Source: Ceratodon purpureus (Eukaryota > Streptophyta > Bryopsida > Pseudoditrichales > Ditrichaceae). From it: 64,000 nt of DNA. Both the position numbers and the translations under genes were made by a program. Shown piece after piece: positions 6,978 to 30,267 of this stretch (position 1 is the stretch's first letter; the number at the start of each line of letters is the position of its first letter). The stretch lies in the NCBI GenBank assembly GCA_014871385.1, contig CM026432.1:823194-887193 (forward strand). The letters are read 5' to 3'. The notes under the pieces are model-generated. The model saw nothing but the letters and a program-made list of their open reading frames with translations. It did no database searches and had not been told where the DNA came from.

Positions 6978-6983
6978 AATAAA
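6978..6983 (+). promoter_or_regulatory. AATAAA poly(A) signal candidate of PAP copy 1
   Basis: A canonical AATAAA lies about 707 bp after the PAP stop codon, within the duplicated block, so both copies carry it. A T/G-rich stretch follows downstream. Plant signals are degenerate, so its use is unproven. Confidence 0.35.
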
Positions 6984-7447
6984 GTCCACCGTAATTCACA
7001 CGACGATTGGGTGCAGAGCGCATGTTTTGATGTGGTTGTGATGATTGGAATCGTTGTAATGAATGAGTGTTTCACCGCGGTGTTGTCGGAAGATCGATCT
7101 GAATGTGGGTACAGTGTGGAGGGTGGTTGTTGATTTCCGAGATGAGTTGTTTCGGGTGTCTGCGATGTGGAATGGTAGGTGTATGATGTGTCGGTGTGCT
7201 TGTTGCTGTGGGGGTACCCCATGTCTTAATTTGGAGGTGTTAAGCATTGATCATGGTCGGTGTGTGTGTTAGTAGTTGTGAATGAGGATTGTTTGTCGTA
7301 GCTGTGTTCGGGAGTTGTATTCTTTGGCACCTTGTTCATCTGGTTATGTGGGGTCCATAGATACTGGGATTTTTTATTGGTAATTCTCCCTGGTTTCTTT
7401 CTGAGTATAAATACTGTCATAATCTTTATGGAAATTGTTAGTTACTG

Positions 7448-7650
7448 GATTTGTATGCTAATTGTGCTGTTTTCGGTAGGCAGCGATCCTGATAGAAGTT
7501 TCGTGCAATGTAAGTGCTGGGTGTGCCGGTTTCTAAAGTAGCAATTAACGTTCACCGGAATACACACGACGTTTGGTTCAGAGTGCTGGTTTCTTTGGTT
7601 GTGATGATTGGAATCATTGTTTTGGATGTGGTACACTTCGGTGTTTTCAT
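7448..7650 (+). repeat. Diverged second copy of the PAP 3' region
   Basis: This stretch clearly resembles 6866-7070, downstream of the PAP stop codon. Both contain caatgtaagtgctgggtgtg and a later tggttgtgatgattggaat, with substitutions and small indels between. It lies outside the recent inverted duplication, which ends at 7346, and I see no counterpart next to arm 2. It therefore looks like an older duplication present only at this locus. Confidence 0.75.
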
Positions 7651-9255: not shown

Positions 9256-9652
9256 CATTAGGGGAAATATGGGGTCTGCAACGGGCCTTGTAAGACAGCC
9301 CGAAGGTAGGTGAACTGCTGCCCACGCATGCCTCTCTTAGTAATCTCATTGGTGGATATCCTGCCCGCTGACAACAGAATCCGCTAGTGTCCAATGGGGT
9401 GACAGCAGTGGCACACGCTCGTTGACAGTGTCATTACTACTCGTATTGTCCAATGGGGTGATAGCAGTGGCACACGCCTTCGCTGCCAGCGATTGGCTGG
9501 ACCCCCCAAACGCCAATTTGGCAACCTGCTGGCACCATTGGGCGACCTGCTGGCACCATTGGTGCCAGCAGGTAAAGTGCACGGGCATGGCCAAATTTTG
9601 AGGCACGACTCCCGACCAAAGGCCCGTTGCAGACCCCATATTTCCCCTAATG
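9256..9652. mobile_element. MITE with perfect 34-bp terminal inverted repeats
   Basis: Bases 9256-9289 and 9619-9652 are perfect 34-bp inverted repeats (cattaggggaaatatggggt onward). Because the outer bases are symmetrical, the target duplication is most simply TA, giving an element of about 9261-9646 (386 bp), as in Tc1/mariner-derived MITEs; other readings are possible. Inside are two copies of a unit starting gtccaatggggtga (about 9390 and 9448) and a 14-bp-arm palindrome at 9545-9573. No transposase is encoded. Confidence 0.85.
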
Positions 9653-10509
9653 TAGGTGACATATATACCAAAGACAACCATATGATCATTTGTGTAGCAT
9701 TTTCAAAAAACTGCATATCCTTGAAGGGATCAAACAAAACACATGCACACAGTGATTTTGGCACAAGTAAAATGATACATGAAAAAAATTATATTTTCAA
9801 TCTCAACAATCTTAGTAAGGCTTATGACTTCTTCCCCTACTTGGAAAAAAGATTAAAATATCAAATAAAAACCAAGGAAGAGCCTTTGAAAATGTAAAAC
9901 CTAGTGTAAAGAACTATGACAAGGAATAGAGGCCAATTGAAGAGGTTGAAGATAGTGGAGTAGAGATGAAGAAGGAAGCCATTGCTAAACACATGGCAAG
10001 GTACTTAGGAGTTTCAAAACTCCTTGTCTTTAACTGTCACAAAGCCTTGCACCATCAGTTCATCCTCGGTGGTGAAGTCATTGCTATCCAAATCCGAAGT
10101 AAAACTATTAGCTTCTACTATTCTACTACTTCTGACCCTCACCTTAGCATTCTCTTTACCATGTTTGCCGTGCGATTTATCTCGCAGTGCTCTCCAACAC
10201 CTCCATTGGCATCCAATCCAATCATTGGCCTTGTTTCTTGAATACGGTCATGTATCATTTTTTTTATTTTTTATTTTTTTATTTTATTTTTAATTTTGCT
10301 CCAAGTTCCTTCAATAGCTGTAGTGAAAAGTCTCAAAACACCCTTTCTTGAGGCATATAATTTTTTTTCTACAAAGGCGGCAAAAACACTAACATCGTTT
10401 TTTTGTGCACATAATATATTTCCTTTGTAAATTTGTCAACTATAGAACATGGATTTGAGGCACATTGAAGACCACAGGCACCACTTCTTTAACTATTCCA
10501 CACAACTAA
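9653..10509. other. Spacer left of unit U
   Basis: AT-rich, with no convincing coding sequence; it contains a T/A-rich run near 10258-10300. It ends in actaa immediately before the first copy of the duplicated unit U. Confidence 0.5.
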
Positions 10510-12399
10510 TTACTTGTTAGGGCTTCCCAAAATTTGAATTGAAATTGGAGATGTGTCATTGATAGCATTTGAATTTGTCCTTGCACTAATGTTTCCAAGG
10601 GGTAAAGATCTATCTTCATAGTTGTTTGATCAAGAAGAAAAAAGAAAGACTTATGTCACTACCTATAAGAGTAATTTTAGCAAATATAGAAGCCCTCAAT
10701 TGAACCGTTGTATCAATCCATGTCATACATGTTGTATAACTAAAATGTGTATAGGAGAAGATGACACATTTTTTCTAATTGCACCATTCCTACGTGGCAC
10801 TACGGTGATTGGCATCCAAAAGTATTCTACTGATAAAGCGTCAATTGAAAAAAGCACAACAACCCTGTTTTCTTTTCACATCATACTTAAAATGCCATGA
10901 ATTTACCTCCTATTGCATTGTATGGTCCAAATTGCGTAAGTGCCATTTTTTGCCAATTCTTTCAAATAAGCCGAGAGGAGAGAAATAATTGTTCATAACA
11001 ACACAATGTCCTTTTCCAAGTTACCTTCCAATAATCTTATGACAACATCATGAGCTAAGTTATCATGAACTATAATTCACCATTGCAAAGACGAGTTTGC
11101 TCTCAACCTCCATCACTACCTCCAGTATAGCTCTATTTTTTCCATAATATATGTGAAAATTGTACACATATTTAGAAATTAAATCCGCTAAACACAATAA
11201 TTTGAATCTCCACTTTTGAGGTTCTTTGGCATGTATTAAAGGATCGAGCGATAACCACCTTTATATTGAATCATCATTTCATCAATATTTAGAAATAGTC
11301 GTGATTCACAAGCTTTTGTAAATATCATTTTCATAGTTTCAATTACTAGTCTAACTTGGCACATCTAATTACAACCCAATAATGTAGGATCATCAATATA
11401 TGATTAATGGTTAGTAACATGCATATAATTATTTAAGATGTCAAAAAAAAATGCATTCATATGATTGCTAATAGTTAGAGATGGAAGCAAAAACTTTTTT
11501 CATCCTATAACTTCTAACATTGAATTGTTTTCTCATATCCATAAGAATGATGATTGCAAGAAAGGACTTCAATGCGGGCACTGCTAAATCCTCCCAAGTA
11601 GACCTACTTCGTGAATTTCCTTGCATATCAAACTTAGTAGCATAATGGTTGGTCTCTACCTAGATGTCTTTCAATATGATCATGGACCAAAACATTTCAA
11701 ACAAACTAAAAAAAAAAAAAAAAAAACATTCTTGTCCATTTTCTTTTAGGCCCCTCTATTTGTACATGTGTTGCGTGGTGGATCAAAAATGTGATTTGCA
11801 CTACTCCATATTGGATTGTAATACTCATATTTTACACTCAAAAATATCAATGCCATCACCATCAATCTCATCAACTTCTTACCCACATAACTTAATAGAA
11901 TTTGTGGAATCACTCAATTTAAGTAATATACACTTCCTTCAGCCAAGGCAGATGGACCTTTGGCCATGCTCACTCAAAGTTTGCTTGCTATACTCTAGTC
12001 CTTCAAATCCACCTACATGTCCTTCATAACCGCAGCCATGGCCCAATTCTAATCGTGGTTCCTAGCTTGTACACAACTGGTCTAGTATCTTCCTCTAGGG
12101 CCTATAAGTCCACTTTCCTATCCCTAGGCAACCAATACTTTGCCACCGCGCCCAGACTCGAGCTTGGTTTCACGGTAGATAAAAATTGTAGAAAGTTAGA
12201 GCTCCATATATTACATGCTCCATTTGTAATTCACGTGAACCGGATACATGGTTATATGTACTACTCACATGCAAACAATAACACATACATTCACTCCGAG
12301 TTAAAAGACACAACAAAGGAGTCTAGGAAATTAGAAAATTATTAGTCTCATCCGAAAAATCACGTAGCTTTATTCTCATGAATGTTGGCACCTTCAATG

Positions 12400-12889
12400 A
12401 TATACCCCCAGAAAATACCATCCCTAATTGGCTACTTCCTTGCACATGCGGCGCACAAAATGCCATTGTAATTCAAGATTTAGACCTGACATCCTTTGTG
12501 TCAAAGGTTTACCATACCAAAGTGATCCCCTTACAGAAATAAACCCTAATCTCACCATACAATTTATTGAATTTACATACTACAATGACAGATTCTCCCC
12601 AGAAACACTTGAAGCTAAAACTAACAAATATAATCCATTAATCGCGAGTATCGTTGCTAGAGGATGGAAAGTCAACCCCCTTATTATCATCACAGCAGGC
12701 GTCAGAGCCACTAGACACATTCCATTAATGAAACTACTTGTAGACAACTTTAAAATACCTATGACCACCATCAAAAATACCTTCAAAAACATAAATACTA
12801 TTGCCATACAATATGCCATGTCCATCCTTCTCCATAAAAGAAGGATAGAAATCCACCAACCATTACCTGTAACATTGGACCCCTCTTAG
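12400..12889 (+). pseudogene. LINE restriction-like endonuclease remnant, copy 1
   Basis: The frame ending at 12889 carries CHCNSRFRPDILC, then IQFIEFTYYNDRF, LEAKTNKYNPL, and a conserved tail ending in INTIAIQYAMSILLHKRR. The PD...E...K spacing and the preceding Cys/His residues fit the C-terminal restriction-like endonuclease of R2-type, early-branching non-LTR retrotransposons; this assignment rests on family pattern recognition. Just upstream another frame reads NWLLPCTCG, the expected first half of the Cys knuckle, so a frameshift at about 12450-12470 breaks the gene. No reverse transcriptase is visible upstream: it is a 5'-truncated, decayed copy. There is no ATG at the start of the frame. 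Confidence 0.6.
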
Positions 12890-12959
12890 TTCAAAACTTC
12901 AAAATCAAAATATTAAAACAATTTAGTAGCTAGAGCTACTTTATTGATTGTTAGCATAC

Positions 12960-13150
12960 ATGTGTAAAGTCTCTTGTCATTTCTCTCATTGGGGGTTGTT
13001 GGTTGGCACAACTCATTATCTGCTCACTCAGTAGTACCAATCCACTTCATACCTCACATTTGCTCAAACGAGTCCATCAGGGTTCGAACCCGGACCAATT
13101 ATATGAGACAAACGCTCACCACCAACCAACAATGAGCTCGTGGCTTAGTG
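12960..13150 (-). mobile_element. tRNA-derived SINE, copy 1
   Basis: Read on the minus strand, bases from about 13147 give an A-box-like region (gagctcattgttggttggtg), a segment resembling an anticodon arm with CTCATA, and a perfect B box GGTTCGAACC at about 13080-13091. Spacing and order match a Pol III tRNA promoter, most like tRNA-Met. The acceptor stem does not close, so it is not a working tRNA gene. The 3' limit toward 12960 is uncertain. Confidence 0.55.
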
Positions 13151-13989
13151 TCCAAAATCACATTTTAACAAATCCTATAGAATTTACCATTTTTCTGTTT
13201 TTTGTTACTGGTTACTAATGACTAATGTGTTTACTTTTGAAAGGGGGGGATAGATCTTTACTTCCATACCTTTGTCTTGTGGGCATTGGATTGGGGGTGG
13301 ATTGAAGAGACACTTCATTCACGTCGGTCTCCTTCGGAGACCGAAGTTTCTCTCTCTTTTTCTCTTTGTAGAAAGTCAGATAGCCTCGCTCCTACCACCT
13401 TGATCCCCTCCTTGTAGCTTAAAATTTTCCCCTCTCCTACTTCATTTCTCCTCTCTAGTGCTCCTCTATACATTTGTCGCGCCTCTCTTAACCTTACTTG
13501 TATTCTTCCTATCTATCACCTTGCATTCTCTCGTTCATCCCATCATATTGTAGTTATTTCTTTTGCATTGGTAGTAATTGCTTAGAATAATGAGGGGCTC
13601 GGGAGGCCCAACAAGCATCTTGTCAAAGTTCACCTCACGATCTTCACCATATAATACCTCGTCATATGGATCTTTAGTATGCTCTTTGCATCTGCTTTTT
13701 TAGCCATTTATTGCATTCACCTAAGTTTATACAACATGTAAGTCTAATTTTCCAATAACATATGCTAGAATGTCTTCCAAGCTTGTATATGAGTGGTTTT
13801 GTACATGAGCGGGTGGATTGAAAAGTACACGGCTTAGAAGTGCCATTCAAGTGCATTTGCTTCATGGTATCAATCATACTTGTCCTTTACTCTTTGTTGT
13901 CAATGCAATTGATTTCCTACTGTAGAGTAAAGAAGTCTTTGCTTTAGGAAGATCCTCTCTAGTAGTTGATCATTCCTGGAAGTGGAGCA

Positions 13990-14271
13990 GTATTCCACTT
14001 AGACTCCGCCTGGTAATGGAGATGGCTGGGGTTCAACTGTGAATGGTGAGAATAGAACTAATAAGGATGAAGATCGTCAGGAAGATGCCGAAGGCGGATG
14101 GGAACGTGGTGCTCCAGAGAGAAGTGAAGAAAGCAGATGGGGTGATGTAGATGATGGATCTGATGAGGGTAGGTCGCAACCAAACGTGAACAGTGAGACC
14201 GGAACAGTTCCAGTTTAAAGTGGCTGGGACATTGCTCGTAGATGGGAGCCTCGTGTGTGAAGGTAAAGATC
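13990..14271 (+). pseudogene. Captured coding fragment, unidentified gene
   Basis: A frame running through about 14016-14215 reads acidic and Trp/Gly-rich sequence (WGSTVNGENRTNKDEDRQ, GGWERGAPERSEESRWGD), then a TAA, then SGWDIARRWEPRV before a second stop. The composition looks like real low-complexity protein rather than chance. It lies in the 5' part of the Helitron, where captured fragments are expected. There is no start codon or complete gene. Parent gene unknown. Confidence 0.4.
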
Positions 14272-14914
14272 ATGCAATTCATAAATTGGCCATTTTCTCA
14301 GGATTACTATGCTGATTGTCCATTTCGAAACGATGATTGTTGTACAATTTGCTGCTGTTATATATGAGTTAGGGATGCCGAACTTTGGAAGTCCCCATGC
14401 ACAAAGTTTTTACATCTTGCAGTTATACCCAGTATCTCTTCTGGGAGGTATTCAATACGTGAAAATGTTGAAGCTGTTGTTCCGAAGCCTACCGATCATT
14501 CCTGCAAACGGCATATCTTTGGGTGAGTATCGCATATGTGGCATCTCTCGAGTTCTTTGCTTAGTCAGTGACTTTCAACTATCTGCATATGCGCTAGAAG
14601 TTTGGAAAATTAACAGTGTCCTTTGAAATTTCACAGCATGCAGTAGTTGAAATTCCTGGATGCAGTCCATTAAATTACCCAGATGTCCGCTGCTTCTGGT
14701 TGGTCAGGACAGATGAAAGTAAGACTGTTCAGATTGCTCTGCACTTCCTCCTTGTCTTGGTATGAACTCAACAAGTAAAATATTCTTCACGTCGTCCATA
14801 TAGATATAGTTGTGCTATAAGACCCGACCTATAGGTAGTTTCACAAACGTTGCGTTCAGTTTATGGAGGGAGCATTCCTCTCTAATTCAATTCCTTATGC
14901 CTCATTGACTGCAG

Positions 14915-15544
14915 CCGTTCGGACAAGTGCCTGTGCTTCAGGATGGCGAATTGACCCTTTTTGGTAAGCTCGCCATGGCTGTGGCCTATGTCTTTCCATT
15001 ACATTCAATTTCTGCTCATGGTGAGGCTTGGATGCGCAATTTTGGGTAGGTTTGGTGTTGTTCTGAACGGATCATGTTTTTCTACCATTGATGCACAGAG
15101 TCGCGCGCCATAACCAGGTACTTAGCGGAGAAGTTCGACGGGCAGGGGACGCCGCTACTGGGGAAGAGCATGAAGGAGAAGGCGCTGGTGAACCAGTGGG
15201 TGGAGGTGGAGTCCCAGAACTACGATCGCCCTTTGATTTCTATCGTGGAGCAAGTCGTCTGGACGCGTACTTGGGGCAAGACAACGAACGAGGAAATCGT
15301 AGCGGCAGAGATGGCGAAACTGGAGAAGGTGCTGGACATATATGAAGTGCAGCTGACGAATCACAAGTACTTGGCCGGAGACTTCTTCAGCCTCGCCGAT
15401 CTCGGTCACTTGCCCGGCACGCACCTGCTCGTGAACATTGGCAAGAAGGGCGCGATATTCGCCGCTCGCCCGCATTTGAACGCTTGGTGGGAAGACATCT
15501 CCTCTCGCCCTTCCTTTAAGAAAATCATGGCAAAGACATCTTAA
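14915..15544 (+). pseudogene. Captured phi-class GST, last two exons
   Basis: Exon 2 is 14915-14963 (49 nt, PFGQVPVLQDGELTLF) and exon 3 is 15099-15544 (ESRAITRYLAEKFDGQGTPL to a TAA at 15542), joined through a clean GT-AG intron whose split codon gives E. A 49-nt middle exon is typical of plant phi-class glutathione S-transferases. Exon 3 has the C-terminal domain, including HKYLAGDFFSLADLGHLPGT and LNAWWEDISSRPSFKKIM. Exon 1, with the catalytic Ser and the first glutathione-site residues, is not found between 13953 and 14914, so no functional enzyme can be made from this copy alone. Position inside the Helitron indicates transduplication. The reading frame is intact, so capture was recent or the fragment is translated in fusion. 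Confidence 0.8.
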
Positions 15545-16161
15545 TTATGTTTAGTAGTTGCAACACTACTTTTCTCCTTCGAATTGAAGTTAGTCTCTTA
15601 CTGATGGTTGAGTGATTGAGCTACATGAAGTAACTTACTTGAGGGTTAAACCTCCTGGTTGGAGATGATAACAAGGGAAGGCTTTGTGGACTTGCTGGAG
15701 ACATTTTGTGAGTTTAATAGTCTATATCGATTGCAATGATTTTTGGGAAGAGTAGTGAGCACTCATTCTTGTAATGGTTTCAGAGGTTGTTTTAATAGGA
15801 ACTGATGTACATGTATATATTGTGGTCGAGGCCAGTAAGTTATCTGGCTCTGAGGATGCGCTCTTTTCTTCAGCATAGATCGCTACTGGTGATGCAGCTC
15901 GAAGGGCAGGCACCATCTCAGATGCTCGGGCAGCAGATAGAGATATTAAGTGTGGTCTGTGTGGTGTCATGAAGTGCTTTAGCAAGCTACCTTCGTATTC
16001 CCTCATGGATTCTCTCATTCGGCATATGTGATGTGTTGGCATAATTTTTGCTTACATCAAGAGACTGAACCGTGTATACTAACTACCTCTATGTGGCAGA
16101 AAAGGTATTGCTACTCCTTGTTATTGGAGATGCTCGTCAAGCGAGGATGACACAAGAGACA
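15545..16161 (+). other. Helitron interior, possibly further captured sequence
   Basis: Follows the GST stop. From about 15772 a plus-strand frame (MVSEVVLIGTDVHVYIVVEA) runs to one TAG and continues plausibly to about 15955; the minus strand is also open for 106 codons. No family recognised. It may be GST 3' UTR plus another captured piece. Confidence 0.3.
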
Positions 16162-16238
16162 AATAAAAGTAGTATAAGTGGTGCTTAGATTCATTGGCGC
16201 ACCCACTAAATCTAAGTACCTCTTTTACTACTTTTATT
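16162..16238 (+). promoter_or_regulatory. Long inverted repeat upstream of Helitron Rep gene
   Basis: Bases 16162-16190 and 16210-16238 form a hairpin with 29-bp arms (about 25 matching pairs) and a 19-nt loop. It separates the captured-gene part from the AT-rich leader of the Rep gene, 272 bp before its ATG. Possible roles are a promoter element, an internal terminus of a former element, or a MITE; none can be decided here. The leader 16300-16380 also has a tandem duplication around aaaatactacacaattat. Confidence 0.5.
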
Positions 16239-16509
16239 GTGTTCATTATTTTCCAGCCATATCGTACAATATACAACATACAATACTATACAATACCATA
16301 TTACACAAAATACTACACAATTATATACAAAATCTATACAACAAAATACTACACAATTATATACAAAGCTATATTACACTACTCTATACATATACTCCAC
16401 TACATACTATATAATCTATGCCAACAAACATTCTAGAAAAGACATATTTTTTCAATATCACAGCTACAACATACGAGTACAAAAATAGAATACAACGCAT
16501 GAATACAAT

Positions 16510-19500
16510 ATGGAAGATACTACTAAATATGTTGTTAATGCAATAAATAGCAAGAGATATACTGATAATCTATCACATATAGATATACATAAGAAACAGA
16601 TACAAAACAAAAAGAGAAGAGAAAAATATGCTCAAGAAAAAAACACCAAAATATCACTTCCATCAATTATAAATAAAGACATCAATCATAATGCAAACCA
16701 AGATCCATTACCAACTCTATTCAATAATATACAAGATGTAAAAAACACACATCGTATGGAGGTACATATTAATCCTCACATTCAAGAACCAATGTTAACA
16801 AACAACAACTCTTGTACAATAAACGAAAATAGAAAAGTGTTCTATGCACAAAACGACAACCTATCATATAGCGACATACATAAGAAAGAGATGCGAAACA
16901 AAAAGAGAAGAGAAAAATATGCTCAAGAAAAAATCACCAAAATATCACTTCCATCAATTATAAATAGAGACATCAATCATAATGGAAACCAAGATCTGTT
17001 ACCAACTCTATTCAATAATATACAAGATGTAAAAAACACATATCATATGGAGGTACATATTAAACCTCACATTCAAGAACCAATGTTAACAAACAACAAC
17101 TCCTCTACAATAAACGAAAATAGAAAAGTGTTATGTGCACAAAAAGAAAAGCTATCATATAGCGACATACATAAGAAAGAGATCCGAAACAAAAGAAAAA
17201 GAGAAAAATATGCCCAAGAAAAACTCACCAAAACATCACCACCATCAGTTATAAATACAAAGAACATTCATAATACTAACACTCGTACAATACCAATGAT
17301 GAAAGTACACAAAAAGGAGATGATCAATAAAAAACGAAGAGAAACATATGCACAAATTAAAGAAATAAGAAATCTACACATAGATATACATGACTCAAAC
17401 ATTGAAGAACCGCTATTGACAAAGAAACCAAAAACCACCCATGCAATATACACTTTCATCAAAAAAATAAACAAACCAATCTCTAAACCATCCATTGACC
17501 AAGTAAAAATCAATCCAGATACAATAAATAAAAACCGTAGATGTAAAAGCATATTACTTAAAACCCTCAAATCAATTAATATGAAGCGAAGAGCCATATA
17601 TGCTTCACAAAAACACATGAAAGACTTACAAATAATTAATCATAAACGAAGAAACCTATATAAACACCAAAGACTTCTCAAAACTATACAAGTATATAAA
17701 AATCTTATACAAACACATATATTACATAATAGTGTAAACAAAAATATACATGAATTTCCTCCAAAGATTACCTTCGAAAACAATCTACATTGCTTTCAAC
17801 AATATAATGACTACATGACAAACAAGTCCTTCATACTATTGAATTGCTCAGTATGCAATCAAATGACAAATACAACACTCCTTAAAAAGTACGATGTTAA
17901 TGATATTAATGATATATTCCCTCACATGAGAGCATTATTAACATTCAATCCAAACCACCACATGTACAACAAGACAAGTACACCCCAAGAACTTTACAAT
18001 GACACCCAACATATGCATATGAACATTAATGGATTACTACTCTCTAAAAAGGGAATCTCAACCATAGACAATACCCTATATATGTGTAAGGCATGTCAAT
18101 CTGCAATACATTCCAAACGGATGCCTAAATATGCTCTTGCAAATGGCTTGTGGATAGGAGAAGTCGATAAGTTGCTTCCTAAACTAACAACAGTAGAACA
18201 ATCACTTATATCTAAATACAGATGTCGTGCAATACTTATAAAATTACGATACATTAAAGGTGGAAATGGACAATATGCTCTAAAAGGAAACTTGGTGAGT
18301 TTCCCTCAAGATCCAATTACTGCAAACAAATTAATCACCATCATTCCACCATCACTAGATTCTTTATCTGAATCAATTGCAATCCATTTTGTAGGGGCCA
18401 CTTATCCACCAATAGACATCATAAAAGCATGTGATTTATTATATGTTCGTAGGGCTGTAGTATTAGCTTGGATTACATGGCTTCAAATACATCATGTCGG
18501 ATATAAAGACATAACAATAGATACTCAAGCTATAAATACACTACCTCACAATGATATACCGAGCTCTATATTAAGATCTATTTTTGAGTCTACAAACATT
18601 GGATTAGCCAATGCTGAACATCGTACCAACATAACAGATCTACATAATGTACCCACAAAAGATCCCACTAACACATCTATTCCAGTCATAGAAACCTCAG
18701 GACTTATAGACTTTGACGGCACAGATATAGATGCCAATGAAATGATGCAAAATGCTGTACAAAATATCCAAAATAACTTATACATGTCTTATACTCACGG
18801 ATCAAGTATGGTTAACGAATACAACAACAATGACTTAATTGCTGGTATGTTTCCCACTCTTTTTCCATATGGCATAGGAGTGCCTGAAATGAGTAATCGT
18901 CCAATAAAAATCACTCTACAAACACATGTACGTTACCTACTCAATCTTGATGATAAAGTACACGAATTTGGTAGGCATCATTTATTTCCATTCTTCATGT
19001 TCAACATAATACAACGACGACAAATATGTCTCGGTTCTAAACTCACCGTATCAAAACCATCATTTATTTCAGAGGCTACACTATTGAATAACATTAAATC
19101 TATAAACTTCAACAAGTTAATAGAGAACCCGCAGACATATACAGAAAATAAAGATATACAAAATCTATTACGACACATTAAAGCATCTAGCAGACACGTC
19201 CTAGCATCAGGCAGTTCTCGTAAAACCCAACGGGATCAAATCATAAATATGATGCATCGATTAGGTGTCCCGAGCATATTTTTTACAATTAATCCAGCTG
19301 CCATACACCATCCGCTTGTATGTCTATATAGTGGAGAGAACATAAACCTAGATATGCATTTTGATACCAATATACCTGACAAAAATAGAAGACATTATAT
19401 TGCAACAACAAACCGAAAAGCTCAAGCTACTTTTGTGCACACCATAGTAAATGCGACATTTAAATACCTTCTCTGTACAAAAGAAAAAAATACTCAAACA

Positions 19501-21501
19501 AATAAAGACAAATCTGGAGTACTTGGCAACATATCTGCCCACTATGGATGTTATGAATCAGCCAAAAATGGAACTCTACACATACACACTCTACTATGGT
19601 TAGCAAATGCACCTGATCCAAATGAACTAACTAAAAAACTACAAAATGATCTAATCTTTCGAGCATCTCTAATTAAATATCTAAACAATACCATTATAAG
19701 AGACACTACATCATTTCAAAGTACCATCAATAACGAACCCATTGGAAAAAATCCACACATAGAAGACAAAGATACAAACCTCATAAATGAAAGCATACAT
19801 CCTTGCACAACACGAGCTCCAAATACAAACGACTCAAATTTCTTAAACAACTTCAAAAAAGATGTCATAACCCTAATGAATGTATGCAATAGACACGTCT
19901 GTAACCCAGCATGTTACAAAAATGATAAAGATGCACATACAAAACTATGTAGATACGGATACCCTGCCCCAATAATATCCGAAACACACTTCGATACAGA
20001 GACTAGCCTATTACATATCAGACGAAAAGACAAGTGGCTAAATAATGCAAATCCATGGATTCTAAGTGCATGTCGATGCAACCACGACATCAAGTTTATA
20101 GGTGCTTCTGGAAAAGACGCTAAGGCCATTGTTTATTATATTACCGATTACATCACAAAATCTTCAATATATACATCTCATATGTACTCTCTCCTACAAA
20201 TTGCTGTACAGAAGATTGAAACTACATATGACAAACAATCATGTAAAGATACGATTGATCGTAGTCGTCGGCTACTTATAAAATGTTTAAATACCATAGG
20301 TTCTCAACAAGAAATATCCGCAACAAGGGCCATCAGTTACCTCATGAATTATCCTGATCATATAACAAACTATAATTTCACATACATTCCATGGTATAGT
20401 TTATCATACTGGGTCCAAGAACAAGAGCAACACATGAATAATTCCATAGATATTGAACATGAACGAGGACGCTTTGAAACATTTAAATTGTCCAAGCAAA
20501 AGAATGGAAATCAAATAGTATTGCATAACTTCCGCATAGACTACCAATATCGTCCACTTATTTGTGCCTCAATGTCACCATATGAATATGCTAGCACAAC
20601 ATCCAAAACGAATCATTCAAACGGATTCAAATATCTAGAAGAACATCCCCAATCTCAATCTCATAGTTTATACAAATTCAGAAATGCCAAGATTCCAGTC
20701 ATTCAAGGTTACAACATCCCTTCCAAAAACAGTGATCCTGAAAACTATAGTCGAGCCATGTGCATACTATTTACATCATGGCGTACAATCCACGATTTAA
20801 AACCAACAATATGTAATACTTGGCAAGAAGTATATTCACTACATCAACAAAGTATAACACCGTATAATAAACAAATCATATCAAACATAGAAGTTATCCA
20901 ACAGTGCAAAGAATCCAGAGACGCAGACAGACTCATGATTGACAAAATGAAATCAAATACATCCACAGATACCTACAACGAAGAAGAAGAACAAGTTGAA
21001 GAAGAACAAGAAGAAGAAAAACACCCCATCTACAACAAAGCCTTAGAAGATGAACTAGATGAAGACGAAAACATATGTATAAATATCATACAAGATGAAC
21101 ATGTTGTAAGTCCAACAAACGATAAGTCCCTAGAATTACAATACATACGATGTAACACAAATATGAAAAGATATGTGGCTACTATAATAGAGACACTCCA
21201 GAGCATGACTACAACCACAAATACACCAACTCAAAATACATCAGAAGACACTTTTGGTATATCCAAGAAACCTTATATTACCCCCATTAAAAACTGGATG
21301 AAAGAATTACGCACTCAAGAAAAATCCACTGAAACAAACACACAACAAAACACACAACAATATACAACAACATACGATACACCTCATAGTGCACCATTAT
21401 TAAGATCTTTAACTAATCAGGATACTCTAAATCTACCTAATGACAATAATGATATAAATACGTATCCCACATACGACACGTCACTACAAAAGAAAATATA
21501 G
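16510..21501 (+). CDS. Helitron Rep protein with DUF6570-like domain
   Basis: A 1,663-codon frame from ATG 16510. Residues about 21-300 are basic tandem repeats with the motif KKRREKYAQEK. Paired cysteines C446/C449 and C526/C529 followed by HSKRMPKYALANGLWIG fit the DUF6570 zinc-binding domain found upstream of Rep in many Helitrons. The Helitron-like N domain follows (MFPTLFPYG, then RRQICLGS). The HUH metal-binding motif is H1024-I-H1026 in GTLHIHTLLWL, and the Rep tyrosines are in YYITDYITK (Y1210, Y1214). Together these are the rolling-circle nickase/ligase of the transposon. The end (from about 1480) is acidic then Thr/Asn-rich. The frame stops at TAG 21499-21501, but the helicase follows in the same frame with no intervening stop. 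A-rich codon use differs from host genes. Confidence 0.92.
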   Translation: MEDTTKYVVNAINSKRYTDNLSHIDIHKKQIQNKKRREKYAQEKNTKISLPSIINKDINHNANQDPLPTLFNNIQDVKNTHRMEVHINPHIQEPMLTNNNSCTINENRKVFYAQNDNLSYSDIHKKEMRNKKRREKYAQEKITKISLPSIINRDINHNGNQDLLPTLFNNIQDVKNTYHMEVHIKPHIQEPMLTNNNSSTINENRKVLCAQKEKLSYSDIHKKEIRNKRKREKYAQEKLTKTSPPSVINTKNIHNTNTRTIPMMKVHKKEMINKKRRETYAQIKEIRNLHIDIHDSNIEEPLLTKKPKTTHAIYTFIKKINKPISKPSIDQVKINPDTINKNRRCKSILLKTLKSINMKRRAIYASQKHMKDLQIINHKRRNLYKHQRLLKTIQVYKNLIQTHILHNSVNKNIHEFPPKITFENNLHCFQQYNDYMTNKSFILLNCSVCNQMTNTTLLKKYDVNDINDIFPHMRALLTFNPNHHMYNKTSTPQELYNDTQHMHMNINGLLLSKKGISTIDNTLYMCKACQSAIHSKRMPKYALANGLWIGEVDKLLPKLTTVEQSLISKYRCRAILIKLRYIKGGNGQYALKGNLVSFPQDPITANKLITIIPPSLDSLSESIAIHFVGATYPPIDIIKACDLLYVRRAVVLAWITWLQIHHVGYKDITIDTQAINTLPHNDIPSSILRSIFESTNIGLANAEHRTNITDLHNVPTKDPTNTSIPVIETSGLIDFDGTDIDANEMMQNAVQNIQNNLYMSYTHGSSMVNEYNNNDLIAGMFPTLFPYGIGVPEMSNRPIKITLQTHVRYLLNLDDKVHEFGRHHLFPFFMFNIIQRRQICLGSKLTVSKPSFISEATLLNNIKSINFNKLIENPQTYTENKDIQNLLRHIKASSRHVLASGSSRKTQRDQIINMMHRLGVPSIFFTINPAAIHHPLVCLYSGENINLDMHFDTNIPDKNRRHYIATTNRKAQATFVHTIVNATFKYLLCTKEKNTQTNKDKSGVLGNISAHYGCYESAKNGTLHIHTLLWLANAPDPNELTKKLQNDLIFRASLIKYLNNTIIRDTTSFQSTINNEPIGKNPHIEDKDTNLINESIHPCTTRAPNTNDSNFLNNFKKDVITLMNVCNRHVCNPACYKNDKDAHTKLCRYGYPAPIISETHFDTETSLLHIRRKDKWLNNANPWILSACRCNHDIKFIGASGKDAKAIVYYITDYITKSSIYTSHMYSLLQIAVQKIETTYDKQSCKDTIDRSRRLLIKCLNTIGSQQEISATRAISYLMNYPDHITNYNFTYIPWYSLSYWVQEQEQHMNNSIDIEHERGRFETFKLSKQKNGNQIVLHNFRIDYQYRPLICASMSPYEYASTTSKTNHSNGFKYLEEHPQSQSHSLYKFRNAKIPVIQGYNIPSKNSDPENYSRAMCILFTSWRTIHDLKPTICNTWQEVYSLHQQSITPYNKQIISNIEVIQQCKESRDADRLMIDKMKSNTSTDTYNEEEEQVEEEQEEEKHPIYNKALEDELDEDENICINIIQDEHVVSPTNDKSLELQYIRCNTNMKRYVATIIETLQSMTTTTNTPTQNTSEDTFGISKKPYITPIKNWMKELRTQEKSTETNTQQNTQQYTTTYDTPHSAPLLRSLTNQDTLNLPNDNNDINTYPTYDTSLQKKI
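16570..17290 (+). repeat. 291-bp tandem repeat inside Rep gene
   Basis: A unit beginning ctatcacatatag / ctatcatatagcgac starts at 16570, 16861 and 17152, an exact 291-bp period (97 codons), with two full copies and a partial third. It keeps the frame, so the protein has repeats of 97 residues, each with one KKRREKYAQEK-type basic motif. Copies 1 and 2 differ at few positions, suggesting recent expansion. Confidence 0.9.
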
Positions 21502-23778
21502 AGCACATTCAATCTATCCTCTGAACAAAATCAAATCTTTGTACAGTACATACAACACCTACAAACAACTACATCTATGAACCAAATACTCATGTATGCA
21601 GGAGGTGCAGCTGGTACAGGAAAAACACAAATCATTAGAGCTATCAAACAATATTTTCAAGAATCTCATATGGAACATAGACTAAAAGTAGGCGCTTACA
21701 CAGCAAGTGCAGCTATACTAATAGGTGGATCCACTATACATTCTTTAGTAGGAATAGCAATAGATACACAAATAAATTCCATCATACTTAAATCAAGCAC
21801 AGACAAATGGGCAGAAATAGACCACTTGATCATTGATGAAGTATCTATGATAGGTTGCAATATGCTTGGAACCCTCCATATGAAACTACAGAAACTAAAA
21901 GCAAATATGTTGCCATTCGGAGGAACAAACATTCTCTTCATGGGCGACTTCATGCAATTTCCACCTATCAATGACGCACCACTGTACACCACAAATGTTG
22001 AGCCCACAAAACATACACAGAAAAAAATATACACAAAACATACACAGAAAAAAATTATTGGAAAAAACTTATGGGAAAATTATGTTCGACCAAATACAAC
22101 CATTCTCTCAAAACAAATGAGACAAGCAGAAGATCTAGAATATAGTAACCTATTAAAAAATATTCGAGAAGAGAATTTCTCTAAACAAGATTATGAACTA
22201 TTAAGTAGTCGATTTCTAACAAATCTAAAAATCAACCTCCTTGAACCTCCATGGGAAGATGCATGCTACATTGTTCCACGCAATGATCTAAGAAATGCAA
22301 TCAATCACTACATGATTGAACACAACCTAAAAAAACATAATCATACATCTTACACCATTGTAGCTACAGACACATACAAAAAACAACCCCTCCGACAAGA
22401 TATACAATTATTAGTCCGACAAACGATTCCTCCTAAAAAGAGCCAAAACCTCCTCCCATTCCTCAAATTATATAAGGGAATGAAAGTTATGTTGACCGAA
22501 AACATACATACAAAATTGGGCCTAGTAAACGGTGCAATAGGAGAAATCATCCAAGTCCTCCTTGAGCAACCTAATACATCCACAAAGACCTCTATGCACG
22601 CACCAACCCACGTCTTGGTGGATTTCTCAAAATTCATGAGCACCCAACCAACTCTACCTCAAATAAAACTTGAAGGACTACCTAAAAATGTTGTACCCAT
22701 TGCACCTATATCCAGAGTTATGGTCTTTGATTATCCGACACATGAGTACAAACACAACAAAACATTTAAAATAAATAGATACCAACTACCTCTTATACCT
22801 GCATTCTGCCTCACTGATTACAAAGCACAAGGACAAACTCACACACATCTCATAATAGATCTCCAAAACCCTCAAGATGGAAAACCGCTTAGTATGCACA
22901 ACATCTATGTAACACTATCACGTCTCCGTAGCATACAAGGCCTCGTAATACTTCGAGACATCACATTTGAAGAAATCAATAAATATAAATTTAACAAAGG
23001 AAGTGTACAATATATGCTAGAGAACCATCAAACTACTCCCAATAATCAACTAAACAATATAGAACTTAAGCATCCTCCCAAAAACATTATAATAGACACG
23101 AAGAACTACAAGACACACCTTCCTAATAAGCCACCAAAAAAGGAACATACACAACCACCTATATCTACAAATATTCAATCACCATCGTCTACAAAGGAAA
23201 ACACACAAAATATTGAACAAGTAGCCAACAACTACTGGATTACTAAATATCAACTAACACAAAATCACGAGAAGACATTACTGAATCCTTCAGGATGGTT
23301 AAGTGATGAGCACATGGGAGCCGGAATGCAAATACTATATGAAAGCCAACTACAACATCAAGGTTATGAAGAACATTCTTATGCCACATTGCACAGAAGA
23401 TCAAAATATACAACAAACTGTCTCCAACATCTATTCATAAACGGAAATCACTGGATACTAGCTCTTATACAACCAAATAATATACATTACCAAGCCATAA
23501 TATACGATTCCAAAAAACCTCAAAACTCATTGTTACCACATGACACAACACATAAACTCCAACAACTCATACCATCTGTAACATTCCGATATATATATGC
23601 AGACGTAATGCAACAGCCAGACAATTCATCATGTAGAGTGTTTGCATTAGCATATGCAACGGACATTGCTTATGACATAAATCCTGAAACGTCAATCTAC
23701 AGTATACCTAATATGCGACAACATCTACGACATAGCATTACACAATTCAAACTATTGCCTTTTCCAAAAACAACATAA
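21502..23778 (+). CDS. Helitron PIF1-like helicase fused to Ulp1-like protease
   Basis: In-frame continuation of Rep after one TAG; the first ATG is at 21577 (733 residues from there). Walker A is GGAAGTGKT (residues 9-17), Walker B LIIDEVSMIG, then GGTNILFMGDFMQFPPI and KQMRQ; the late helicase motifs are LTDYKAQGQT and NIYVTLSRLRS. This is the 5'-3' helicase of Helitrons. From about residue 550 a C48 (Ulp1/SENP-like) cysteine protease fold follows: WLSDEHMGAG substrate-side motif, His in GNHWILALI, Asp in IIYDSKK, Gln then catalytic Cys686 in QQPDNSSCRVFALAY. All expected active-site residues are present. If the TAG is read through or was absent, Rep-helicase-protease would be one protein of about 2,400 residues. 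If it is a true stop, the helicase would need its own initiation. Confidence 0.9.
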   Translation, partial: STFNLSSEQNQIFVQYIQHLQTTTSMNQILMYAGGAAGTGKTQIIRAIKQYFQESHMEHRLKVGAYTASAAILIGGSTIHSLVGIAIDTQINSIILKSSTDKWAEIDHLIIDEVSMIGCNMLGTLHMKLQKLKANMLPFGGTNILFMGDFMQFPPINDAPLYTTNVEPTKHTQKKIYTKHTQKKIIGKNLWENYVRPNTTILSKQMRQAEDLEYSNLLKNIREENFSKQDYELLSSRFLTNLKINLLEPPWEDACYIVPRNDLRNAINHYMIEHNLKKHNHTSYTIVATDTYKKQPLRQDIQLLVRQTIPPKKSQNLLPFLKLYKGMKVMLTENIHTKLGLVNGAIGEIIQVLLEQPNTSTKTSMHAPTHVLVDFSKFMSTQPTLPQIKLEGLPKNVVPIAPISRVMVFDYPTHEYKHNKTFKINRYQLPLIPAFCLTDYKAQGQTHTHLIIDLQNPQDGKPLSMHNIYVTLSRLRSIQGLVILRDITFEEINKYKFNKGSVQYMLENHQTTPNNQLNNIELKHPPKNIIIDTKNYKTHLPNKPPKKEHTQPPISTNIQSPSSTKENTQNIEQVANNYWITKYQLTQNHEKTLLNPSGWLSDEHMGAGMQILYESQLQHQGYEEHSYATLHRRSKYTTNCLQHLFINGNHWILALIQPNNIHYQAIIYDSKKPQNSLLPHDTTHKLQQLIPSVTFRYIYADVMQQPDNSSCRVFALAYATDIAYDINPETSIYSIPNMRQHLRHSITQFKLLPFPKTT

Positions 23779-23879
23779 TGAACTGTTCAATCATCACCAT
23801 CATAAAAACCTACCACCTTCTACCAATATACACCTATCTACCATTACATTTACACACCTATCAATCGTAAATACCAATC

Positions 23880-23913
23880 GTCACTGGTAATGCGGAGAGC
23901 AGCGAAGCCCTAG
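23880..23913 (+). other. Helitron 3' terminus
   Basis: The element ends GCGGAGAGCAGCGAAGCCCTAG before a T, a GC-rich end in otherwise AT-rich DNA. The GCGAAGC heptamer (23902-23908) is a sequence known to form a very stable mini-hairpin in single-stranded DNA; the hairpin is closer to the terminus than in most Helitrons. Another weak stem (accaat...actggt) lies just upstream. The CTAG end matches the CTRR rule. Confidence 0.7.
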
Positions 23914-25803
23914 TTACTTGTTAGGACTTCCCAAAATTTGAATTGAAATTGGAGATGTGTCATTGATAGCATTTGAATTTGTCCTTGCACTAATGTTTCC
24001 AAGGTGTAAAGATCTATCTTCATAGTTGTTTGATCAAGAAGAAAAAAGAAAGACTTATGTCACTACCTATAAGAGTAATTTTAGCAAATATAGAAGCCCT
24101 CAATTGAACCGTTGTATCAATCCATGTCATACATGTTGTATAACTAAAATGTGTATAGGAGAAGATGACACATTTTTTCTAATTGCACCATTCCTACGTG
24201 GCACTACGGTGATTGGCATCCAAAAGTATTCTACTGATAAAGCGTCAATTGAAAAAAGCACAACAACCCTGTTTTCTTTTCACATCATACTTAAAATGCC
24301 ATGAATTTACCTCCTATTGCATTGTATGGTCCAAATTGCGTAAGTGCCATTTTTTGCCAATTCTTTCAAATAAGCCGAGAGGAGAGAAATAATTGTTCAT
24401 AACAACACAATGTCCTTTTCCAAGTTACCTTCCAATAATCTTATGACAACATCATGAGCTAAGTTATCATGAACTATAATTCACCATTGCAAAGACGAGT
24501 TTGCTCTCAACCTCCATCACTACCTCCAGTATAGCTCTATTTTTTCCATAATATATGTGAAAATTGTACACATATTTAGAAATTAAATCCGCTAAACACA
24601 ATAATTTGAATCTCCACTTTTGAGGTTCTTTGGCATGTATTAAAGGATCGAGCGATAACCACCTTTATATTGAATCATCATTTCATCAATATTTAGAAAT
24701 AGTCGTGATTCACAAGCTTTTGTAAATATCATTTTCATAGTTTCAATTACTAGTCTAACTTGGCACATCTAATTACAACCCAATAATGTAGGATCATCAA
24801 TATATGATTAATGGTTAGTAACATGCATATAATTATTTAAGATGTCAAAAAAAAATGCATTCATATGATTGCTAATAGTTAGAGATGGAAGCAAAAACTT
24901 TTTTCATCCTATAACTTCTAACATTGAATTGTTTTCTCATATCCATAAGAATGATGATTGCAAGAAAGGACTTCAATGCGGGCACTGCTAAATCCTCCCA
25001 AGTAGACCTACTTCGTGAATTTCCTTGCATATCAAACTTAGTAGCATAATGGTTGGTCTCTACCTAGATGTCTTTCAATATGATCATGGACCAAAACATT
25101 TCAAACAAACTAAAAAAAAAAAAAAAAAAACATTCTTGTCCATTTTCTTTTAGGCCCCTCTATTTGTACATGTGTTGCGTGGTGGATCAAAAATGTGATT
25201 TGCACTACTCCATATTGGATTGTAATACTCATATTTTACACTCAAAAATATCAATGCCATCACCATCAATCTCATCAACTTCTTACCCACATAACTTAAT
25301 AGAATTTGTGGAATCACTCAATTTAAGTAATATACACTTCCTTCAGCCAAGGCAGATGGACCTTTGGCCATGCTCACTCAAAGTTTGCTTGCTATACTCT
25401 AGTCCTTCAAATCCACCTACATGTCCTTCATAACCGCAGCCATGGCCCAATTCTAATCGTGGTTCCTAGCTTGTACACAACTGGTCTAGTATCTTCCTCT
25501 AGGGCCTATAAGTCCACTTTCCTATCCCTAGGCAACCAATACTTTGCCACCGCGCCCAGACTCGAGCTTGGTTTCACGGTAGATAAAAATTGTAGAAAGT
25601 TAGAGCTCCATATATTACATGCTCCATTTGTAATTCACGTGAACCGGATACATGGTTATATGTACTACTCACATGCAAACAATAACACATACATTCACTC
25701 CGAGTTAAAAGACACAACAAAGGAGTCTAGGAAATTAGAAAATTATTAGTCTCATCCGAAAAATCACGTAGCTTTATTCTCATGAATGTTGGCACCTTCA
25801 ATG

Positions 25804-26293
25804 ATATACCCCCAGAAAATACCATCCCTAATTGGCTACTTCCTTGCACATGCGGCGCACAAAATGCCATTGTAATTCAAGATTTAGACCTGACATCCTT
25901 TGTGTCAAAGGTTTACCATACCAAAGTGATCCCCTTACAGAAATAAACCCTAATCTCACCATACAATTTATTGAATTTACATACTACAATGACAGATTCT
26001 CCCCAGAAACACTTGAAGCTAAAACTAACAAATATAATCCATTAATCGCGAGTATCGTTGCTAGAGGATGGAAAGTCAACCCCCTTATTATCATCACAGC
26101 AGGCGTCAGAGCCACTAGACACATTCCATTAATGAAACTACTTGTAGACAACTTTAAAATACCTATGACCACCATCAAAAATACCTTCAAAAACATAAAT
26201 ACTATTGCCATACAATATGCCATGTCCATCCTTCTCCATAAAAGAAGGATAGAAATCCACCAACCATTACCTGTAACATTGGACCCCTCTTAG
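25804..26293 (+). pseudogene. LINE restriction-like endonuclease remnant, copy 2
   Basis: Part of unit U2 and identical in reading to the remnant in U1, including the frameshift between the CTCG and CHC cysteine pairs. The shared lesion shows that the element was already dead before U was duplicated. Confidence 0.6.
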
Positions 26294-26363
26294 TTCAAAA
26301 CTTCAAAATCAAAATATTAAAACAATTTAGTAGCTAGAGCTACTTTATTGATTGTTAGCATAC

Positions 26364-26554
26364 ATGTGTAAAGTCTCTTGTCATTTCTCTCATTGGGGGT
26401 TGTTGGTTGGCACAACTCATTATCTGCTCACTCAGTAGTACCAATCCACTTCATACCTCACATTTGCTCAAACGAGTCCATCAGGGTTCGAACCCGGACC
26501 AATTATATGAGACAAACGCTCACCACCAACCAACAATGAGCTCGTGGCTTAGTG
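26364..26554 (-). mobile_element. tRNA-derived SINE, copy 2
   Basis: Same tRNA-like head as in U1, with the B box at about 26484-26495 and the A-box region toward 26550. It was duplicated with unit U and is not an independent insertion. Confidence 0.55.
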
Positions 26555-27356
26555 TCCAAAATCACATTTTAACAAATCCTATAGAATTTACCATTTTTCT
26601 GTTTTTTGTTACTGGTTACTAATGACTAATGTGTTTACTTTTGAAAGGGGGGGATAGATCTTTACTTCCATACCTTTGTCTTGTGGGCATTGGATTGGGG
26701 GTGGATTGAAGAGACACTTCATTCACGTCGGTCTCCTTCGGAGACCGAAGTTTCTCTCTCTTTTTCTCTTTGTAGAAAGTCAGATAGCCTCGCTCCTACC
26801 ACCTTGATCCCCTCCTTGTAGCTTAAAATTTTCCCCTCTCCTACTTCATTTCTCCTCTCTAGTGCTCCTCTATACATTTGTCGCGCCTCTCTTAACCTTA
26901 CTTGTATTCTTCCTATCTATCACCTTGCATTCTCTCGTTCATCCCATCATATTGTAGTTATTTCTTTTGCATTGGTAGTAATTGCTTAGAATAATGAGGG
27001 GCTCGGGAGGCCCAACAAGCATCTTGTCAAAGTTCACCTCACGATCTTCACCATATAATACCTCGTCATATGGATCTTTAGTATGCTCTTTGCATCTGCT
27101 TTTTTAGCCATTTATTGCATTCACCTAAGTTTATACAACATGTAAGTCTAATTTTCCAATAACATATGCTAGAATGTCTTCCAAGCTTGTATATGAGTGG
27201 TTTTGTACATGAGCGGGTGGATTGAAAAGTACACGGCTTAGAAGTGCCATTCAAGTGCATTTGCTTCATGGTATCAATCATACTTGTCCTTTACTCTTTG
27301 TTGTCAATGCAATTGATTTCCTACTGTAGAGTAAAGAAGTCTTTGCTTTAGGAAGA

Positions 27357-30267
27357 TACAAGATTTTTGGTTGCAATTAAATTTAGCTTAATATAATAAA
27401 AAGGCATTGATAGTATTAAGTGTCTATTTTAAAAAAATAAAAATTGAGTTGCTACGGTTGTGCATTCATTCTATGGTAGAACGGCTTGATAGCAAAGTGA
27501 TTTCATCATTGTTCAATTTTATAACTCACACGACTCTAGTTTTTAGGAAAACTCAAATTTACAAACCATTCAAATTAGTAATAGAGAAAATTTGAGGCAC
27601 TTCATTAAAGTTCAAGTTTAATCAAGAACATATTGTTTCTACGATAATAAAATTAGATTACAGCATTTAAAAAAACTTAGTAAAAAAAGATTATACCTAC
27701 TAGTTATTAACATTTAGTTTAAGTATCTCAATTGGATATTAGTTTAAGTATCTCAAAAGTAAGTCATCCTAGACGTCTCTCTTAACAATCATGTGTTTAA
27801 ATAAACATCATGAAGAACGTCATAAAAAACGTATGTGTCTTGAAATTTATCAATGTTTCCAAAGTATTATTTGCATGAATTGTTAAATCCTACTCTAAAA
27901 ATGCTCTGAAAATGTCCAATGAGTTTTTAAAAATAAACAATTTATACTGATCCCTAACGTCCATATTCCTCTCCACATGAAGGAGATTTGCAAATATGCA
28001 TATAAATTACACCTTAGGAGGGATATTTTGAACTTGATGTATGTATACAAGTTGCACACTTTGAATTCTGAGGTTCTATCCATACACCAATTTTTTGTAA
28101 TCAAAAAAAGAATTTTAGGCTCTATCACCAATCTTTTTAATAAAATTTGAAACCTTAAATTCAAAATTCATTTGTAATTTGATTAAAAATAAAATATTGA
28201 CAATTTTTGAATGAAATTTGTTTCGATGGATTGAAATGTTATACTCTAAGTATAATGAATTTTTGGTGATTTTTTGGCCACATAATTTTATGAGTTGATT
28301 TTTTCAAATGTAGTTTTCAACTAAGATTTTAGAAATTTTTGGTGAATCACTACACATGAAATGAGGCATAAGAAGTACACAAACTTATATGCTTACAAAT
28401 TGTTTCATACATGCATGAAGCTAACTTCCTATAAAATCTCCATAAAAATTTTGTACCACAAAAGTGCTTGATGGAAGAAAAATCAGTGTTCAATTCTATA
28501 CAACATGCAATTTTTGCATGGTTTGACCTTTAGGATCAATTCCTAATGAGCAAGAAAGCCAAAACGGCTTTTTCTATTTTGGGCAGCTTAGATGAAGGGT
28601 TAAAAATTAATATTTTTTCTAAGATTTTTATAGAGTGATCCCTATATTACAAAGTGTATGCAAAAAAATTGGCAAGGTCAAATTCCAAATTTTGATTTTT
28701 TCATTTCAAGCTGAAACCGGAGAACTGGAAAAATTCATCTAAACCTTGAAAGGCCCAAGTAAACCAAAATGGCTTTTTGTTGTTTCGGGCAGCCTAAATG
28801 AAGGCTTTAACTTTGATATTTTGGGTTAGAATTTGGGGCGGGTGTGGTAATACATACAAACTATATGTAATAGAATTTGAGAAGGCAGATTCCAATTTTA
28901 GAATTTTATTATGCAAAATTTTGTTTTCAAGCCGAGAAAGGGCAGCATATTCTTTAAAAAAAATAGTGTTAATTTTTATTTTTTTTTGGAAATATGTTTA
29001 TGATAATATTACTACTTACATTTTCAAAAAGTTCCAATTCAGAGTTTTACCTATTTTACAAGGACAGCCTTCAAATTTTACATGAGTAAGCTTCAGAATT
29101 CGTAGTTTCAAAAATTATCAAAATTTGAGATTTGATAATTTTTCAAAAAACATTTTTTTTCCTAAAATTCACAAACTCATAGATGTAACTTTTCACTGTT
29201 CACTTGCTTACTAAACTCAAAAATCATCCTATATTATAATTTTAAATTTAGACAAAAATAATGTTAAAATAATTTTAAATAACTTTTAAATATCAAAATA
29301 ATGTTAAAAAATTTAAAATAATATTTTAAATTATTAAGATCTCATGCAAGTTTAAGAGATTACAAATGACTAAAATTATAAAATAAAATTTCCAAAAATA
29401 GTTACTAAATAATATTATAATATAATATGCCACTAAAATTATAATTTTATAAAACATCAATTAGCCAAAAATATGGAATGCAATGTATTTGAATCTATTA
29501 GTAAAAAAAATTTTAATTTTAAAATAACAACCAAAATTAGTACCACGTGCAATTTTTTTTGTTTGAAGTGTGTATTACAATAGTTCAAATAAATAAATAA
29601 AATATTTTCCTTGCAACAAAGGATAAGAAGTAGTTTTTGGCCACCTAAACAAGCTATGTTGATTTTTGCACAATATGGAAGGATGGAAAGAAATATTTAG
29701 ATTATTCACTTATACAACAATGTATTATACTAATATTTTATGACAATTGACATATATAGTATTGTATTGAAACTCAAAAAAAAATCCCTTGTGGAGTAGT
29801 AGATCATGATGTTTTTACAGTGAACTAAAAAACCCTCCCCGTTTTCCTATTTTTTTCACATCAGAGTTGCGTTCTATCTAAACCGACAATAACTTTCACA
29901 TACTTATCCGCACTCAAACTGAAAGCACATGTTGACATGGCAGTGTCATGTTTATGACGACGTTGTCTAAAACATGACTATATTTACTACGACGTTCTGC
30001 AAAACAAGTACGTTTATGCTAACATGTCTGCGTTTTTTCGCCAATTTTTCATGTTTAGTGCAACTTCCACCAAAATCCGAGAGCCCATGGCTCGGCTTGT
30101 TCGCAAAAATATGTTTCGAAAAACTCACTCGAACACAGCTAGTGTCACAAAAAACACAGGTTTTTTATAGTGTATTGTCAAGACCACCTTCATTTTCTAC
30201 CATATGATTTCTATTTGATGAGAGTATGTACAGTGATTTTTTACAATAGGAACATCTACTTATTTAA
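27357..30267. other. Gene-free AT-rich DNA
   Basis: No gene is supported. A diverged tandem duplication with an offset of about 207 bp spans roughly 28555-28960: ggctttttctattttgggca in copy 1 matches ggctttttgttgtttcgggc in copy 2. Bases 29230-29500 are simple A/T-rich sequence. Confidence 0.6.

Follow-up and report, generated by a model that had tools for sequence, protein, structure and literature searches.

Architecture of the locus

The window examined in this study is a 64,000-bp stretch of the Ceratodon purpureus genome (assembly GCA_014871385.1, contig CM026432.1, forward-strand positions 823,194 to 887,193) that contains no N and carries a Helitron transposable element exactly between two direct copies of a 3,443-bp unit, here termed U. 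Self-comparison of the window, followed by base-by-base reading, gave the order L-U1-Helitron-U2-R, where L (7347-10509) and R (27357-30263, AT-rich) are the left and right flanks, U1 (10510-13952) and U2 (23914-27356) are the two copies of the unit, and the Helitron (13953-23913; 9,961 bp) fills the interval between them, with U1, the element, and U2 all on the plus strand. The same order and coordinates had been reported in a first-pass annotation of this DNA, and both proved correct. In the self-comparison, 10506-13953 aligned with 23910-27357 at 99.91% identity; read per base, the base to the left of the unit is unlike in the two places (A at 10509 in L, G at 23913, the final base of the Helitron), while the base to its right is T both times (13953 in the Helitron, 27357 in R). 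A full alignment of U1 with U2, proposed as a check in the first-pass annotation, revealed two mismatches only (10522 G versus 23926 A, and 10601 G versus 24005 T).

All four junctions are base-exact, reading ...CAACTAA|TTACTTG at L/U1, ...AGGAAGA|TCCTCTC at U1/Helitron, ...AAGCCCTAG|TTACTTG at Helitron/U2, and ...AGGAAGA|TACAAGA at U2/R. Two earlier readings were borne out at this level, namely that the 5' TC of the Helitron directly follows the last base of U1 and its 3' CTAG directly precedes the first base of U2, and that both outer junctions are themselves A|T dinucleotides (CTAA|TTAC at L/U1 and AAGA|TACA at U2/R). Given the site frequencies of the window, the chance of finding A|TC together with CTRR|T at two arbitrary breakpoints is approximately 5e-5; therefore, both inner junctions seem to be the work of transposition ends rather than of random breakage. 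The chance that both free outer bases (A and T) would also fit is approximately 0.09.

The Helitron and the duplicated unit

The ends of the element match those of canonical Helitrons, with a 5' TC beginning at 13953 after an A (13952), a 3' CTAG (23910-23913, agreeing with CTRR) before a T (23914), and thus an A/T insertion site. A 7.3-kb frame (16489-23778) encodes an HUH Rep and a PIF1-like helicase as a single RepHel protein, except for one in-frame stop at 21499 that falls between the two parts, and it matched the Pfam families DUF6570 (E 7.1e-36), Helitron_like_N (E 3.1e-20), and PIF1 (E 1.1e-22). The Rep part (16489-21501, plus strand; first Met at 16510) bears the DUF6570 and Helitron_like_N matches, an HUH-like motif, LHIHTLLW (19576-19599), and a YYITDYITK motif (20134-20160) of a type that we take to resemble those of Helitron2, Helentron, and fungal FoHeli elements. 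The helicase part (21502-23778, plus strand) matched Helraiser (PDB 7lcc, E 8.4e-10) among 20 PDB sequences, nearly all of them PIF1-type helicases; for the Rep part, a PDB search at a cut-off of E 1 recovered nothing, not even Helraiser. The last 200 residues of RepHel weakly resemble a C48-type cysteine protease, with a Pfam match below the cut-off (E 0.029) and PDB matches, SENP1 and SENP8 among them, at E 0.24 or worse. The 5' part of the element contains a GST C-terminal fragment (15092-15544, plus strand; Pfam E 2.5e-13), which is taken as ordinary gene capture by the Helitron. Two further repeats were observed inside the element: a 77-bp near-palindrome in its 5' part (16162-16238, approximately 80% self-complementary), and a 291-bp tandem repeat (2.4 copies, 16570-17257) that lies in frame in the N-terminal part of Rep and encodes 97-residue basic repeats.

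Canonical Helitrons also carry a palindrome of 16-20 nt about 11 nt before the 3' end. Here, neither the terminal 60 nt (z -0.60, equalled by 61 of 200 shuffles) nor the terminal 34 nt (z +0.74, equalled by 158 of 200) folded better than shuffled sequence, and the longest perfect stem near the 3' end was 5 bp long, enclosed a loop of 8 nt, and stopped 24 nt short of the terminus. Because no 3' palindrome was found, the element is not classed as a standard Helitron1 member; it is a Helitron with Helitron1-like ends, minus one defining feature. Asymmetric terminal inverted repeats of the Helitron2 type were also sought and, at the thresholds applied, not found, the best match between the two ends of the element being 5 bp. 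A comparison of 10300-16488 with 23779-24250 at a score of at least 11, a threshold that would miss 8-10-bp repeats situated off the ends, returned two matches, both between U1 and U2. The element is flanked by the 3,443-bp direct repeats themselves, from which no short target-site duplication can be separated. Among viral contigs, the set searched for relatives of the Helitron proteins, one scan gave no pattern match and another gave five stretches, none of which was confirmed.

Compared to canonical Helitrons (Helitron1, including Helraiser/Helibat1; PMC4778049, PMC5876387, and PMC4067079, in the portions available to us, among which are also the Helraiser results cited below), the element is alike in its 5' TC, 3' CTAG, A/T insertion, joined Rep and PIF1-type helicase, and internal gene fragment. 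It differs from them in that no 3' palindrome was found, in its 3.4-kb direct-repeat flanks, in the in-frame stop between Rep and helicase, in its DUF6570 and weak C48-like tail, and in a Rep part with no PDB match. Helitron2/Helentron elements have asymmetric terminal inverted repeats of 8-15 bp, and some Chlamydomonas Helitron2 families make target duplications of 7-19 bp, so that duplication of a flank has a precedent (PMC3627910, PMC5148889, in the portions available). In contrast to that group, as described there, the present element had no asymmetric terminal inverted repeat at the score used, its target is A|T and not TT or TTTT|T, and the duplication spans 3,443 bp compared to 7-19 bp.

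The unit U looks like layered transposon debris. It holds an open reading frame (ORF) at 12428-12889 (25832-26293 in U2) that has no Pfam match and that presumably recalls the C-terminus of a retroelement, and a tRNA-like B box was seen by eye at approximately 13080; Rfam and tRNA scans of the whole window returned nothing, and Pfam found no family in the plus frames of 10200-13300 or the minus frames of 12700-14400. Antisense in U1 there is also a piggyBac-type DDE domain (PF13843), degraded and containing stops, which Pfam matched in two stretches (E 3.6e-10 for the whole frame); the best-scoring stretch lies at 10949-11233 on the minus strand, and a short piece searched by itself gave E 9.8e-06. 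A second minus-strand frame (10649-10290) reads, by eye, FFFLLDQ...SHLQFQFKFWEALTSN up to the L/U1 junction and crosses it with stops and no change of frame; 42 codons further on, L gives CRLCRKKIICLKKGCFETFH, a Cys-rich CF..H motif (minus strand, 10382-10323). As piggyBac transposases have a Cys-rich domain at the C-terminus, we take this motif, by eye, to be that domain of the degraded transposase. At Helitron/U2, the same minus frame enters Helitron sequence and has no Cys-rich motif. Since the relic seemingly runs across L/U1 and is cut at Helitron/U2, L-U is taken as the old order; as far as the sequence goes, it is probably ancestral, and Helitron/U2 is probably an insertion into the piggyBac relic.

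Origin of the duplication

The locus is most likely a Helitron-bounded duplication that is real in the sequence and well bounded: the element sits at the junction between the copies, and the unit is delimited by the target sites of the element. The best conventional explanation, which we favor tentatively and with somewhat less than even confidence, is that U was duplicated by two Helitron insertions and an unequal exchange. The ancestral order would have been L-U-R, with U a single-copy unit of older DNA. Helitron ends would have used the two A|T sites bounding U, with the 3' CTAG placed at L|U, within the degraded piggyBac transposase, and the 5' TC placed at U|R; two near-identical Helitrons would have inserted, one per site, on different haplotypes. 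Unequal exchange within their shared 10 kb would then give L-U-Helitron-U-R, together with an L-Helitron-R product that was lost. Given L-U-R as the old order, Helitron ends placed at a pair of A|T sites account for all four junctions. U1 stops at the 5' end of the Helitron and U2 starts at its 3' end, so that exchange needs no extra break; the outer A|T pair is what two insertions followed by exchange demand, and the terminal A of U corresponds to the target-site requirement.

As a rule, Helitrons are said to insert without duplicating their target. Unequal exchange between dispersed transposon copies (nonallelic homologous recombination, NAHR) has as its textbook product a duplication whose junction holds a single recombinant element. 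By kind, then, the duplication seen here is such a product; the Helitron case was not found described in the portions of the literature searched, where no Helitron was reported between two copies of a flanking unit or as an NAHR substrate, which is weak evidence of absence. In Populus trichocarpa, an array of KCS genes with Helitrons (PMC13253262) is similar in that a change in copy number goes together with a Helitron next to every copy and in that bypass of CTAG is invoked, but it is a gene array, and base-level junctions do not appear in the portions of that paper available. If true, a Helitron that bounds a duplication to the base would show a route by which neighboring DNA gains copies, either through exchange or directly through Rep chemistry, and each of these routes predicts different precursor alleles.

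Several observations weigh against the two-insertion account. The base-exact junctions fit the exchange between two Helitrons that the first-pass annotation had proposed, but the two insertions and the exchange itself are events that we infer, and models with one insertion, or an assembly chimera, yield identical junctions. In addition, the account needs two insertions of the same family 3.4 kb apart, in one orientation and in one population. The piggyBac relic lends some support to L-U as the old order, with a Helitron entering at A|T, but its continuation across L/U1 is a reading by eye that no profile supports. Pfam returned no family for the three pieces that extend into L, nor any piggyBac match for the three frames of 10509-11009, just inside U1; the PDB matches of an L-reaching piece were not piggyBac, and the DDE frame and its short piece had no PDB match at all. 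The DDE stretch and the C-terminal reading also sit in different frames. The Cys-rich motif, expressed as the pattern C..C.{2,8}C.{2,5}CF.{2,4}H, has a single match across the six frames of the window, compared to none in 60 Markov-simulated windows, but the pattern was composed post hoc from sequence already seen. At the other side, nothing spanning U-R was found that would show its ancestry independently of the Helitron: Pfam searches of six frames of 26500-28900 gave only a TAN match below the cut-off (E 0.019), leaving R with no gene or element identified in that span, and a low-stringency self-comparison showed nothing across U/R.

The mismatches between U1 and U2 are a further difficulty. 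Both fall in the 92 bp at the start of the unit; in 200,000 draws, such crowding had p 0.0008 at this end and p 0.0014 when either end was allowed. Two differences near one edge are not what two haplotypes would be expected to show. A similar pattern is seen in an inverted pair elsewhere in the window (3439-7346 and 42593-38686; 3,908 bp, 99.9% identity), whose four mismatches are all no more than 49 bp from an end; the one farthest out (3442) may reflect chance extension of the alignment. In a third repeat pair (54022-55107 and 60306-61391; 98.8%), 13 mismatches are spread out over 1,086 bp. Identical interiors with differing edges suggest a collapsed consensus or gene conversion; because mismatches crowd at the repeat edges, the identity and age of U1 and U2 are not to be trusted.

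There are several potential alternatives to two insertions and an exchange. The first, which we regard as unlikely, is a single aberrant transposition, in which Rep cut the 5' end of a single Helitron, located at L|U on one chromatid or homologue, and transferred it to the A of U|R on a chromatid free of the element; the 3' side, left unresolved, stayed attached to U-R, such that one strand transfer would produce L-U-Helitron-U-R. This requires only one insertion and one new junction, namely a Helitron 5' TC on an A, and in the sequenced Helraiser insertions the 5' TC abuts an A whichever of the three donors was used, even where the 3' end was wrong, the 5' terminal sequence being essential and the 3' one dispensable in the portions of those reports available. 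The lack of a detectable 3' terminator hairpin here points the same way, but loss of the hairpin reduces Helraiser transposition to 8.8% of wild type in the same reports. In maize, duplications with an element at the junction are made directly by transposition of Ac (PMC3744419, in the portions available). The reversed-ends transposition of Ac/Ds described there resembles the present case in that transposon ends generate a direct duplication with the element at its junction; unlike it, Ac/Ds are hAT elements with 8-bp target duplications that act as two reversed elements, whereas here a rolling-circle element lies between A|T junctions. A single aberrant event would also need a Helitron-free partner chromatid and an intermediate that is not described in the portions of the Helitron literature searched, where no Helitron event of this sort was found. 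It is this one-step alternative, if true, that gives the locus its interest: a Helitron might, though this is doubtful, duplicate kilobases of its flank in one step by joining its two ends to two A|T sites on two chromatids. By analogy, such a route would be a one-ended or bridging strand transfer leaving flank-Helitron-flank, an improbable but conceivable rolling-circle counterpart of the alternative transposition of Ac.

A slightly more doubtful possibility is that the arrangement is an assembly or haplotype chimera, in which sequence common to two haplotypes (or to an L-U-R allele and one bearing the Helitron) led to their being merged, or in which the copy number is wrong. The edge-only mismatches of both 99.9% pairs are consistent with this, as if one consensus had been placed twice and differed only where reads were anchored in the flanks. 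The third pair does not have this pattern. Gene conversion, however, would yield the same one. Moreover, the window contains no gap, base-exact Helitron ends at the inner junctions are unlike a random false join, and a merge through the Helitron would itself require both parental alleles.

Improbable, in our estimate, is a read-through circle, in which a Helitron at L|U bypassed its own 3' end, took up U, and closed into a circle where U stops, and the circle then recombined into an L-U-R allele lacking the element. Helraiser reads through in approximately 11.7% of events, and in at least 36% without the hairpin, and double-stranded DNA circles are known for it (in the portions available); additionally, no 3' hairpin was found here. 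However, U ends in AAGA, whereas the five de novo ends given for Helraiser in those portions comprise three CTTG, which are internal truncations, plus one CTAC and one AATG that are each uncertain by two bases, and none of them reads as ending in A. The stem-loop at the end of U is weak (z -1.8, equalled by 11 of 200 shuffles), a point of limited weight given that 0 of the 5 reported Helraiser ends had a palindrome. Under this scenario, the A|T at U/R would be due to chance.

It is very improbable that U and the Helitron together make up a single element of 13.4 kb (10510-23913) that ends in short inverted repeats, U2 being a broken tandem second copy. Such repeats could be represented by a 9-bp complementarity between the start of U (TAGGGCTTC; 10518-10526, or 23922-23930 in U2) and the end of the Helitron (GAAGCCCTA; 23904-23912); the pairing is perfect for the U1 copy, and the variant at 23926 disrupts it in U2. 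Random pairs were as good in 0.2% of cases with windows of 25 and 20 bases but in 4% with windows of 50 and 80, and the complementarity, noticed post hoc, is possibly due to chance. The composite element is considered unlikely because the piggyBac reading, with a relic that appears to cross L/U1, would make L-U the old order. It would also leave to chance the set of TC, CTAG, and A/T at the ends of the Helitron itself, and the Helitron/U2 junction folds no better than shuffled sequence (102 of 200 as good). Least credible of all is a plain U-U tandem formed first and then hit exactly at its junction by the Helitron, for while that junction would be A|T and thus a legal target, it is a single site among the 695 A|T dinucleotides of U-U, and the A|T at both outer junctions would again have to arise by chance (0.09, as above).

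Other features of the window

Beyond the Helitron and its flanking copies, each copy of the 3,908-bp inverted repeat carries an open frame of 620 residues, and the frame of the first copy matched plant-type poly(A) polymerase domains, with no introns interrupting them. The left flank L includes a small element (9256-9652) with perfect 34-bp inverted ends (9256-9289 and 9619-9652). The direct repeat with 98.8% identity flanks a HODM_asu-like ORF (57615-58139), and an ORF of the MIP (aquaporin) family lies at 37022-37873.

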